A DNA stretch of 64,000 nt from NCBI GenBank assembly GCA_021792365.1, contig JAJYUT010000003.1:248001-312000 (forward strand), given 5' to 3'. The notes below the pieces were generated by a model. The model worked only from the letters and a program-made list of their open reading frames with translations. It had not been told where the DNA came from and made no database searches. Positions 42,410 through 45,449 of this stretch are shown here, one piece after another (position 1 is the first letter of the stretch; every line of letters begins with the position of its first letter). This DNA is from Pseudomonadota bacterium (lineage in GTDB: Bacteria; Pseudomonadota; Alphaproteobacteria; Dongiales; Dongiaceae). The position numbers and the translations under genes are program-made.

Positions 42410-42554
42410 CCGCCGAGTGTTTTTTCGCCAAGCGATTCCATGCGCGCGAAGAGCCGCCACGGCCGCCATGTGGTGCGGGCATTAACTTGTGTAAGGTCGC
42501 ACCCCACCTTATGTTGGAGACTTGCTTCTAACGCATAGCTTCGGATTCGCGCCA

Positions 42555-43553
42555 ATGCCCACCGCTGCGCCCCAGAATGCCCCCCAAAGGGAGCTCCACA
42601 CCAAGGTCCTGATCATCGGGTCCGGCCCGGCCGGCTACACCGCCGCCATCTATGCCGCCCGCGCAAACCTCAAGCCCATCCTGGTTCAGGGCATGTCTCC
42701 CGGCGGCCAGATGACCATCACCACCGATGTGGAGAACTATCCCGGCTTCGCCGACGTCATCCAGGGTCCCTGGCTGATGGAACAGATGGAGGCCCAGGCC
42801 CGCCATGTCGGGACGGAGCTCGTCTTCGATACGATCGTCGACGTCGACCTCTCCCGTCGGCCGTTTCGGGCGGTGGGCGATTCCGGCGACGTCTATCTGG
42901 GCGAGACACTGATCATCTGCACCGGCGCCCAGGCGCGCTGGCTCGGCCTGCCCTCGGAGAAGAAGTTCCAGGGCTTCGGCGTGTCCGCCTGCGCCACCTG
43001 CGACGGGTTCTTTTTCCGCGAGAAAGAGGTGGCGATCGTCGGCGGCGGCAACACCGCGGTCGAGGAGGCGATCTACCTGACGCAGCACGCGACCAAGGTG
43101 ACGCTCATCCACCGCCGCGACACCCTGCGGGCCGAGCGCATCATGCAGGAGCGGCTGTTCGCCAATCCCAAGATCGAAGTGATCTGGGACAGCATGGTGG
43201 AGGAAGTGCTGGGCGGCGGGGATCCGGAGGCGGTGACGGGCGTCCGCATCCGCAACCTGAAGACCGGCGGGACGCGCGATCTTGCGGTCGACGGCCTGTT
43301 CGTCGCGATCGGCCACGATCCGGCGACCCAGCTCTTCAAGGGCAAGCTGCAGCTGGACAATGAGGGCTACATCATCACCCAGCCCGACAGCACCGCGACC
43401 GCCATCCCTGGCGTGTTCGCCGCCGGCGACGTGAAGGACAAGGTGTTCCGCCAGGCGGTCACGGCCGCCGGCATGGGCTGCATGGCGGCCCTGGAGGCCG
43501 ACAAGTTCCTGGTGAAGAACGAGCGCCATTCCTCCGCTGCGGCGGCCGAATAA
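42555..43553 (+). CDS. trxB: Thioredoxin reductase
   Basis: A 332-aa NADPH-dependent flavoprotein. It has the FAD motif VLIIGSGPAGYTAAIYAARA, the redox-active CATC (residues 146-149 from this start) and the NADPH motif VAIVGGGNTAVEEA, with the GVFAAGDVKDKVFRQAV end segment. The ATG at 42555 is chosen; a TTG at 42522 in the track would add 11 residues but its ribosome site is too close. It keeps thioredoxin reduced in the cytoplasm. A LysR gene follows 21 bases later. Confidence 0.97.
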   Translation: MPTAAPQNAPQRELHTKVLIIGSGPAGYTAAIYAARANLKPILVQGMSPGGQMTITTDVENYPGFADVIQGPWLMEQMEAQARHVGTELVFDTIVDVDLSRRPFRAVGDSGDVYLGETLIICTGAQARWLGLPSEKKFQGFGVSACATCDGFFFREKEVAIVGGGNTAVEEAIYLTQHATKVTLIHRRDTLRAERIMQERLFANPKIEVIWDSMVEEVLGGGDPEAVTGVRIRNLKTGGTRDLAVDGLFVAIGHDPATQLFKGKLQLDNEGYIITQPDSTATAIPGVFAAGDVKDKVFRQAVTAAGMGCMAALEADKFLVKNERHSSAAAAE

Positions 43554-43574: not shown

Positions 43575-44477
43575 ATGATGGATTGGGACAAGCTGAGGAT
43601 ATTTCATGCGGTCGCCGAGGCGGGCAGTTTCACCCACGCAGGCGAGACGCTGAACCTCAGCCAATCGGCCGTCTCGCGCCAGATCAGCTCGCTCGAGGAG
43701 AGCCTCAACGTCTCGCTGTTCCACCGCCATGCACGCGGGCTCATCCTGACCGAGCAGGGCGAATTGCTCTACCGCACCTCGCACGAGGTGTTCTCGAAGC
43801 TTGCCATGGCCGAGGCGCAGCTCGCCGAGAGCAAGGACCGTCCCAAGGGTCAGCTCAAGGTGACGGCGACCCAGGCTTTCGGCTCGTTCTGGCTGACGCC
43901 GGTGCTGGGCGAGTTCATCGACCACTATCCGGACGTCCAGGTCGACCTGGTGCTGGAGGACCGCGAGCTCGACCTCTCCATGCGCGAGGCCGACGTCGCC
44001 ATCCGCATGCAACCGCCGCGTCAGCCGGAGCTGATCCAGCGCCATCTGATGACGGTGCATCTCGGCTGCTATGCCTCGCCGAGCTATATCAAGCGCCACA
44101 GCATCCCCAAGACGCCGGAGGAACTCGATAACCACCGCATCATCGTCTATGGCGAGGACACCACCAAGCCGCCGGTGCAGAACATCGATTGGCTGCTACG
44201 CGCCGGCACCCGGAAGGACCACCAGCGCAAGCCCATCCTGCGCGTCAACAGCAGCTACGCCATCCTGCGCGCCGTGCAGAGCGGCCTCGGCCTGGCCTCG
44301 CTGCCGGAGTTCATGATGCTCGAAGCCTCGGCCCTGGTGCGCGTGCTGCCGGAGTTGCAGGGCCCGCGGATCGACGCCTACTTCGTCTATCCGGAAGAGC
44401 TCAGGAATTCGAAGCGCATCCAGGTCTTCCGCGACTTCCTGCTGCGCAAGGTCGCCGAAAGCAAGATGACGACCTAG
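43575..44477 (+). CDS. LysR-family transcriptional regulator
   Basis: A 300-aa LysR protein with HTH at about residues 17-45 (SFTHAGETLNLSQSAVSRQISSLEESL) and a full effector domain (GQLKVTATQAFGSFWLTPVL through GLGLASLPEFMMLE). The gene begins 21 bases after trxB on the same strand, so co-transcription is likely. The second codon is also ATG and could be the start. The effector is unknown; a link to redox balance is only suggested by context. Confidence 0.92.
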   Translation: MMDWDKLRIFHAVAEAGSFTHAGETLNLSQSAVSRQISSLEESLNVSLFHRHARGLILTEQGELLYRTSHEVFSKLAMAEAQLAESKDRPKGQLKVTATQAFGSFWLTPVLGEFIDHYPDVQVDLVLEDRELDLSMREADVAIRMQPPRQPELIQRHLMTVHLGCYASPSYIKRHSIPKTPEELDNHRIIVYGEDTTKPPVQNIDWLLRAGTRKDHQRKPILRVNSSYAILRAVQSGLGLASLPEFMMLEASALVRVLPELQGPRIDAYFVYPEELRNSKRIQVFRDFLLRKVAESKMTT

Positions 44478-44484
44478 AGCCGGC

Positions 44485-44742
44485 TCAGCGCCGCTCGCGC
44501 ATGGCCTCGGCAATCTCGCGGGCGCGGGCGTCCTGCTTGGCGGCGTTGATCGCCAGGACCGCGTGGATGACCGCGATGGCCCAGATCGCCAGGAACAGGC
44601 CCAGCGTGATGAAGGGCAGGATGGCGAAGATGAAGCTCACGAACGCGAACAGGCAGATCAGCAGATTGAAGATCGCCTGGAAGATCTTCCCATAAATCAG
44701 CAGCGCCAGCGGGGGCAGAAAGATCGCAACCAGATAGATCAT
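44485..44742 (-). CDS. Small hydrophobic membrane protein (YqaE/Pmp3-like N-terminus)
   Basis: An 85-aa protein. The ATG at 44742 follows aggagcg; the tracked 129-aa form adds a non-conserved N-terminus. The first 30 residues (YLVAIFLPPLALLIYGKIFQ) resemble the Pmp3/YqaE stress-linked membrane peptides; further hydrophobic segments follow and a charged tail ends it (ARAREIAEAMRERR). It probably spans the inner membrane two or three times. Function unknown. Confidence 0.8.
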   Translation of the reverse strand: MIYLVAIFLPPLALLIYGKIFQAIFNLLICLFAFVSFIFAILPFITLGLFLAIWAIAVIHAVLAINAAKQDARAREIAEAMRERR

Positions 44743-44989
44743 CGGGCGCTCCTGAGCCTGTCCTATGGTCGAGTCGTGGTTAATTCTTACACAATGGCGC
44801 GCCGCGCCGCACGAGAGCAACGCTGCCGATTCGCCGGAGTCGCCGACGATCCGCCGGATTCTACACCTCGACACACGACTGTTGGTCGCCCCTTAAACGA
44901 CTGAACAGAAACCATAAAACAGCTATGCAGCATGCGCATGCTTCATATGTGCATTTTTGGCTAGTCGTCGAGTCGGTTCGTTCCTTATT

Positions 44990-45182
44990 GTGTCACTGTG
45001 TTGGTCAGCAACACTGTTGCTAGTTTGCAACGGCGCTGATCCGAAAAGTTTCGGAGCCTTGACGGCTCGAGTCAGAATACCTAGGTGCAACGCTTAGGTA
45101 TGAGGGTCTTCGGATCCTACGTCTCCCAGACGTAAAGCCTCCCTGTTTAACTTGCCGGGTCTTCGGACCCGGCAATTTTTTT
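44990..45182 (+). ncRNA. Candidate structured small RNA with intrinsic terminator
   Basis: A protein-free stretch on the plus strand holds a run of perfect or near-perfect hairpins: AGCAAC/GTTGCT (45007-45021), TCCGAAA/TTTCGGA (45040-45055), TGAC/GTCA (45060-45074), ATACCTA/TAGGTAT (45077-45101), a UUCG-type loop AGGGTC/GATCCT (45103-45118), TACGTCT/AGACGTA with loop CCC (45118-45134), and the terminator stem. Single-stranded CCTCCC and the CCC loop could pair with ribosome sites. No plus-strand gene lies close upstream, so the terminator must end a non-coding transcript. The 5' end is an estimate. Confidence 0.65.
45152..45182 (+). terminator. Strong intrinsic terminator (UUCG hairpin and seven T)
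   Basis: A perfect 10-bp stem TTGCCGGGTC/GACCCGGCAA closed by a TTCG tetraloop and followed by TTTTTTT. It is oriented on the plus strand only; the minus strand has no T-run, so it does not serve the gene at 45186-45449. Confidence 0.9.
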
Positions 45183-45185
45183 GCC

Positions 45186-45449
45186 TTACTGGATCCCGAT
45201 CGAATTGAAGAACCGCACCACGCGGGCGAGCGCGTCGGTCACCTCGGGCGAATGGGTGATGTCGTCGAGCGCGGCGGTCGAGGATTTCATGGCCGCCGTA
45301 TCCGGCTTGGGCGCCTGCACCTCCTGCTCCAGGGCGGAGATGTGGTCCATGATGTCGCTGAGCTCGTCCTCGGAAAAGCCGGCCTCCCGCACCTCCTTGC
45401 GGAAGCGCTCCAGCGCCATGATGGCTTTCTCGCGATGGTCTTCCTTCAT
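45186..45449 (-). CDS. Conserved-looking small hypothetical protein
   Basis: An 87-aa mostly helical, acidic protein (MKEDHREKAIMALERFRKEV, then DELSDIMDHISALEQEVQAP). The ATG at 45449 is preceded by ggag nine bases away; the tracked 133-aa form starts in low-complexity DNA. Its stop lies 4 bases past the end of the small-RNA terminator. I do not recognise a family. The C-terminal SPEVTDALARVVRFFNSIGIQ looks like an amphipathic helix. Confidence 0.65.
   Translation of the reverse strand: MKEDHREKAIMALERFRKEVREAGFSEDELSDIMDHISALEQEVQAPKPDTAAMKSSTAALDDITHSPEVTDALARVVRFFNSIGIQ

Follow-up and report, generated by a model that had tools for sequence, protein, structure and literature searches.

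What does the plus strand encode between positions 44990 and 45182 of the window, a 64,000-nucleotide stretch of DNA from a member of the Dongiaceae (Alphaproteobacteria)? A sequence-only reading had proposed a regulatory small RNA with exposed anti-Shine-Dalgarno sequence, made of at least six stable stems in about 180 bases and ending in a perfect UUCG terminator with seven T. Folding of the interval gave −79.6 kcal/mol, compared with −56.2 ± 4.7 kcal/mol for dinucleotide-shuffled sequences (z = −5.0; none of 200 as good). The narrower interval 44998-45182 gave z = −5.8, and at least seven hairpins were predicted within it. The intrinsic terminator (TTGCCGGGTC-TTCG-GACCCGGCAA followed by T7) was located at 45152-45182 on the plus strand, and the exposed CCTCCC-type strand and CCC hairpin loop were found at 45138-45147 (CCTCCCTGTT) and 45125-45127 respectively. 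As had also been claimed, the terminator has no coding gene to serve. The nearest plus-strand coding gene, encoding a LysR-type regulator, ends at 44477, about 520 bases before the RNA, and apart from frame shadows the only open reading frame between the two is a small one on the minus strand (44485-44742). The parts of the RNA are as follows.

44998 to 45014, plus strand: 5′ hairpin GUGUUG-GUCAG-CAACAC, from the fold and identical in two same-genus genomes; it could alternatively be a DNA dyad.
45016 to 45031, plus strand: second 5′ hairpin, GUUGC-loop-GCAAC, from the fold and alignments.
45077 to 45101, plus strand: SL1, a long hairpin with a GUGCAAC loop region; nine modelled pairs, 9/9 with double-sided changes.
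45103 to 45118, plus strand: SL2, a UUCG-capped hairpin; six pairs, 6/6 with double-sided changes.
45119 to 45133, plus strand: SL3, the CCC-presenting hairpin ACGUCU-CCC-AGACGU; 97% of cells paired, five of six pairs with double-sided changes.
45138 to 45147, plus strand: anti-Shine-Dalgarno seed CCUCCCUGUU, single-stranded; unpaired in the centroid fold.
45152 to 45182, plus strand: SL4, the intrinsic terminator with a U7 tail; ten pairs, 10/10 with double-sided changes.

BLASTN searches of 96 genomes (the window's own and relatives) detected the RNA in 44. In the two best genomes of the same genus the match ran over almost all of the 231-base query; the other matches covered the 3′ core only, conservation beyond the genus being limited to the 3′ part, about 45077-45182. 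The two 5′-most hairpins are supported by genus-level conservation and folding, as the covariation count covered SL1-SL4; an element similar to the GTTGC...GCAAC of the second recurs in the family. An alignment of 28 relatives showed SL3 (ACGUCUCCCAGACGU) and the unpaired CCUCCCUGU to be nearly invariant, and the seed, invariant or nearly so, is the most conserved part of the RNA. The near-invariance of SL3 holds outside Rhodobacteraceae and Rhizobiales.

A covariance model (R1) was built from 14 sequences and gave 76 matches in 80 loci. In the R1 alignment 91.9% of cells were paired (70.8% when shuffled), both sides of a pair had changed in 397 cells (86 when shuffled), and double-sided changes occurred in 30 of the 31 modelled pairs. 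The covariation score was 0.479, compared with 0.142 for the shuffled alignment and at most 0.094 for sliding-partner controls; counting on an alignment fitted to the structure favours that structure, and the contrast with the sliding controls is still large. Compensatory changes, whose absence had been set beforehand as a refutation, are present, and because they keep the hairpins in relatives the hairpins are not a product of chance. The product of the interval 44990-45182 is almost certainly a small regulatory RNA, and the proposal of an exposed anti-Shine-Dalgarno sequence is consistent with all findings. In an even sample of 289 alphaproteobacterial genomes, R1 found matches in 123. Two copies of the RNA are present in some genomes (L174 and G068, locus L014); in L174 both lie downstream of lsrB, with two ATGC-N7-GCAT boxes.

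The gene order upstream of the RNA indicates where it belongs.

42522 to 43553, plus strand: trxB, thioredoxin reductase (NCBIfam TIGR01292, 410 bits, above cut-off).
43575 to 44477, plus strand: LysR-type regulator, LsrB/VtlR ortholog (Pfam HTH_1 and LysR_substrate), the predicted activator of the RNA.

The best PDB match of the LysR protein was 9HH1 (329 bits; next match 141 bits), which is LsrB of A. tumefaciens (PMC11975290). In other genomes the best LysR match was likewise far ahead of the second LysR, and trxB adjoins the LysR gene in many relatives. The RNA core lies on the same strand as the LysR ortholog in other Alphaproteobacteria, mostly 145-375 bases downstream of it. Of the terminated loci that were found by pattern and had sufficient upstream sequence, 52 follow a same-strand LysR ortholog; the other 20, which do not, presumably include other anti-Shine-Dalgarno RNAs. 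The slot is also used by RNAs already studied. The order in A. tumefaciens is trxB-vtlR-abcR1-abcR2, and AbcR1 requires VtlR (PMC7486931); abcR1 of S. meliloti is activated by LsrB (PMC8844928), and abcR1/abcR2 occupy the lsrB/vtlR slot in both Agrobacterium and Sinorhizobium (PMC7486931, PMC8844928). Many matches to the ar15 (AbcR) model in a Rhizobiales sample were in the slot downstream of the LysR ortholog, as was, directly, the only SorY match above the Rfam cut-off in 199 genomes of the SorY family (L205, 115 bits). The shared slot suggests one ancient circuit across much of the Alphaproteobacteria.

Two features of the neighbourhood were noted in passing. C165 is the only cysteine of the LsrB ortholog, which carries valines where Agrobacterium LsrB has the conserved redox pair C144/C273; the circuit therefore seems to be kept without the thiol switch. 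The minus-strand frame at 44485-44742, between lsrB and the RNA, encodes 85 residues of hydrophobic character and is conserved in the genus and family; Pfam and NCBIfam searches of it gave no match.

Just upstream of the interval 44990-45182, the gap between the LysR gene and the RNA holds the following candidate control elements.

44925 to 44939, no strand assigned: predicted LsrB operator ATGC-AGCATGC-GCAT, a T-N11-A LysR-type box, from the recurrence of ATGC-N7-GCAT in LysR-sRNA gaps.
44916 to 44928, minus strand: sequence match to the LsrB/VtlR consensus GCAT-N3-TG-N3-T (GCATAGCTGTTTT), overlapping the operator.
44984 to 44989, plus strand: candidate −10 element CTTATT, placed by spacing.

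The consensus GCAT-N3-TG-N3-T is published (PMC8844928, PMC7486931). The exact ATGC-N7-GCAT was present in 73 of 110 LysR-sRNA gaps, compared with 0.2 by shuffling and 0-9 for other spacings; allowing up to one mismatch it was present in 107 of the 110 (shuffles 9.5, other spacings 17-37), where the shuffles are mononucleotide and the loci, having been gathered by similarity, are not independent draws. It was found in 12 of 13 ar15 loci at up to one mismatch (4 of 13 exactly), and the SorY locus carries it exactly. We propose ATGC-N7-GCAT as a more complete, palindromic form of the LsrB/VtlR operator, which could be tested where AbcR1 or SorY is already studied.

At the SorY locus the centre of the box lies about 67 bases before the expected start, as judged from the promoter-like CTTGAA...CCTAAAT. 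With a SorY-like spacing, the start of the window RNA is therefore expected near 44996-45000; we infer a start near 44998, in agreement with the left end given by the sequence-only reading. A promoter scan found no sigma-70 consensus promoter for the RNA, and our assignment of −35 and −10 elements is a guess. Two other placements were considered. A promoter CTTGAC-N17-CTAGGT (45059-45087) would put the start inside SL1, and was rejected as SL1 covaries and the operator would then be some 150 bases away, upstream. The idea of a LysR operator in the 5′ dyads (44998-45031) was set aside, the box conserved across the class being that at 44925-44939. In the lsrB-linked RNA of Rhodobacteraceae (L205-L216), a sigma-H-like promoter CTTGAA...CCTAAAT stands downstream of an LsrB-type box and about 30-100 bases upstream of CCTCCCTG; it recalls the way in which RpoH1 controls AbcR2 in S. 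meliloti.

Targets were sought in the window's genome by pattern, as ACAGGGAGG (the complement of CCUCCCUGU) 2-9 bases before ATG. Ten distinct genes were returned, six of which encode ABC-transporter substrate-binding proteins (one PotF-like, three SBP_bac_5, one SBP_bac_1 and one UrtA-like), against 2 of 25 control genes with GGGAGG-ATG (p = 0.003), the control being small and from one genome. In two same-genus genomes the pattern again returned mostly binding proteins, and several orthologs of the first set keep the site. Pooling the three genomes gave 18 of 28 against 2 of 25, a set that includes orthologs and is not independent, so that the pooled p is not to be leaned on. As the seed is common to at least two other RNAs of the window's genome, an ar8 copy and a second R1-like RNA, the target set is best assigned to the seed class as a whole. 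Acetoacetyl-CoA reductase, of PHB synthesis, is another of the ten; in two genomes of the genus (L217, L264) the ribosome site of its mRNA is complementary to the seed, and there may be a connection with the role of MmgR-type RNAs in PHB.

We consider it quite probable that the RNA is an LsrB-activated, trans-acting anti-Shine-Dalgarno sRNA of AbcR/SorY type, about 185 bases long, that represses transporter mRNAs; on our best reading such an RNA is undescribed in this lineage. LsrB, the product of the LysR gene at 43575-44477, would bind ATGC-N7-GCAT at 44925-44939 and activate a promoter firing near 44998, and the UUCG terminator would end the transcript at 45182. Where the Shine-Dalgarno region of an mRNA reads ACAGGGAGG, the single-stranded seed would then pair with it; the CCC loop of SL3 would assist, as probably would Hfq (an hfq gene is present in the window's genome, and the RNA has a U7 tail). 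Such pairing would block translation of the target mRNAs, predicted to encode mostly ABC-transporter substrate-binding proteins together with a few metabolic enzymes such as acetoacetyl-CoA reductase. The mode of action would be like that of AbcR1, which is activated by LsrB and represses ABC transporters via Shine-Dalgarno pairing (PMC8844928), and of SorY, which represses a malate transporter (PMC8307010). An RNA type missed by Rfam thus gains a predicted regulator, operator and target class.

No named family had been matched from the letters alone, and the Rfam searches bore this out: at gathering and relaxed thresholds no family passed for the RNA. Over 45114-45189 the sub-threshold matches were SorX at 33.9 bits (cut-off 46.6), suhB/mmgR at 26.3 (cut-off 41) and SorY at 25.9 (cut-off 111, a very strict value that 1 of 199 genomes of its own family passed). 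With the ar15 model (RF02345), nothing in the window matched at any E up to 10, and there was no match in the window's genome or in an even sample of the class, in the latter case probably because few Rhizobiaceae were included; a second search, of the order to which a Methylobacterium genome belongs, supplied the Rhizobiales sample.

The RNA nevertheless resembles two families closely in setting and design. AbcR1 and AbcR2 (alpha-r15; Sinorhizobium, Agrobacterium, Brucella) both lie downstream of trxB-lsrB/vtlR, share the LsrB/VtlR-type operator with the window RNA (a predicted site in the window), and, like it, carry one anti-Shine-Dalgarno motif in a hairpin loop and another in a single strand. 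Their targets are ABC-transporter substrate-binding proteins, as predicted for the window RNA. The window RNA differs in its stems and in lacking a match to the ar15 model, in its seed (CCUCCCUGUU, compared with UUCCCCUCUGG in ar15 loci) and in being a single copy, whereas AbcR forms a tandem pair in the slot. Because the ar15 model misses it, we have not filed the RNA as AbcR, and homology to AbcR rests on position, operator and function rather than sequence. SorY (RF02651, Rhodobacter sphaeroides) has the LysR-ortholog slot, the ATGC-N7-GCAT operator, CCUCCCUGUUNNACUU followed by a terminator, and a transporter target; it differs in its sigma-H-like promoter, a different and shorter 5′ hairpin, and the lack of SL3. 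Among the papers searched none names both SorY and AbcR1, and the common locus and operator link these two separately studied model sRNAs.

As a refinement, the window RNA could be a direct sequence ortholog of AbcR and SorY that has diverged past recognition by Rfam, rather than an unrelated replacement in the slot, and this we somewhat favour. All three have in common the slot, the operator and the order of a hairpin-loop anti-Shine-Dalgarno motif, a single-stranded one and a terminator, and R1 finds the SorY locus (E = 2e-4, 27.3 bits). However, R1 finds only one of five searched ar15 loci, marginally (E = 0.008), the ar15 model misses the window, and short anti-Shine-Dalgarno seeds can converge. 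Common descent is plausible from the sequences compared. In the history that we lean towards, AbcR of rhizobia, SorY of Rhodobacter and the window RNA would descend from one LsrB-controlled anti-Shine-Dalgarno RNA fixed beside trxB-lsrB early in the Alphaproteobacteria. The regulator, operator and transporter-repressing role would have been kept and the body of the RNA largely replaced, with a promoter of stress-sigma type in Rhodobacteraceae.

It is unlikely that the RNA is instead derived from a 3′ UTR, through read-through from trxB-lsrB and release of a 3′ fragment by RNase E as for SorX (RF02784) of Rhodobacter. SorX is the best sub-threshold Rfam match and is called a 3′-UTR-derived sRNA in the title of its own paper, which PMC8307010 cites; conservation across the class is confined to the 3′ core. 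Yet the operator conserved in the gap implies that the RNA has its own promoter, and in this genus the RNA lies about 520 bases beyond lsrB, past a convergent minus-strand frame. SorY, of the same slot, is described in PMC8307010 as directly transcribed and unprocessed. As a family, SorX resembles the window RNA in its seed CCUCCCUGUU, its terminator and a transporter target (polyamine for SorX, predicted for the window RNA), but the genuine, strong SorX loci that we examined were not linked to LysR, and the window RNA falls short of the SorX cut-off.

A copy of the ar8 family (alpha-r8, mmgR/SisA-D, RF00519) is a disfavoured reading that we hold to be very improbable. The sub-threshold suhB/mmgR match and the similar CCUCCCU seed (CUCCCU in alpha-r8) point towards it, and both RNAs have a weak hairpin before the seed and a terminator, but the window RNA occupies the lsrB slot, another locus and family. 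Moreover, the window's genome has a separate ar8/mmgR RNA above threshold (58.4 bits; G000:C21:1026797-1026869, L280, L292), close to a frame similar to N-formylglutamate amidohydrolase, which is the usual ar8 neighbour (PMC12559287), and the window RNA is therefore not taken as ar8.

That the dyads are DNA-level regulatory sites beside a stray terminator, with no functional RNA, is scarcely credible: both of the 5′ hairpins are palindromes close to a promoter, but SL1-SL4 show compensatory changes and the unpaired seed is near-invariant.

The second R1-like RNA of the window's genome (G000:C1:159957-160055; L291, 1658-1756) scored 36.9 bits with R1 and has CCTCCCTGTCTAACTT and a terminator. 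A short-chain dehydrogenase gene that by eye resembles 3-hydroxybutyrate dehydrogenase stands immediately upstream, and the RNA is possibly a 3′-UTR sibling tied to the PHB cycle. Second R1 matches were also seen in three genomes of the same family (G008, G011 and G012).
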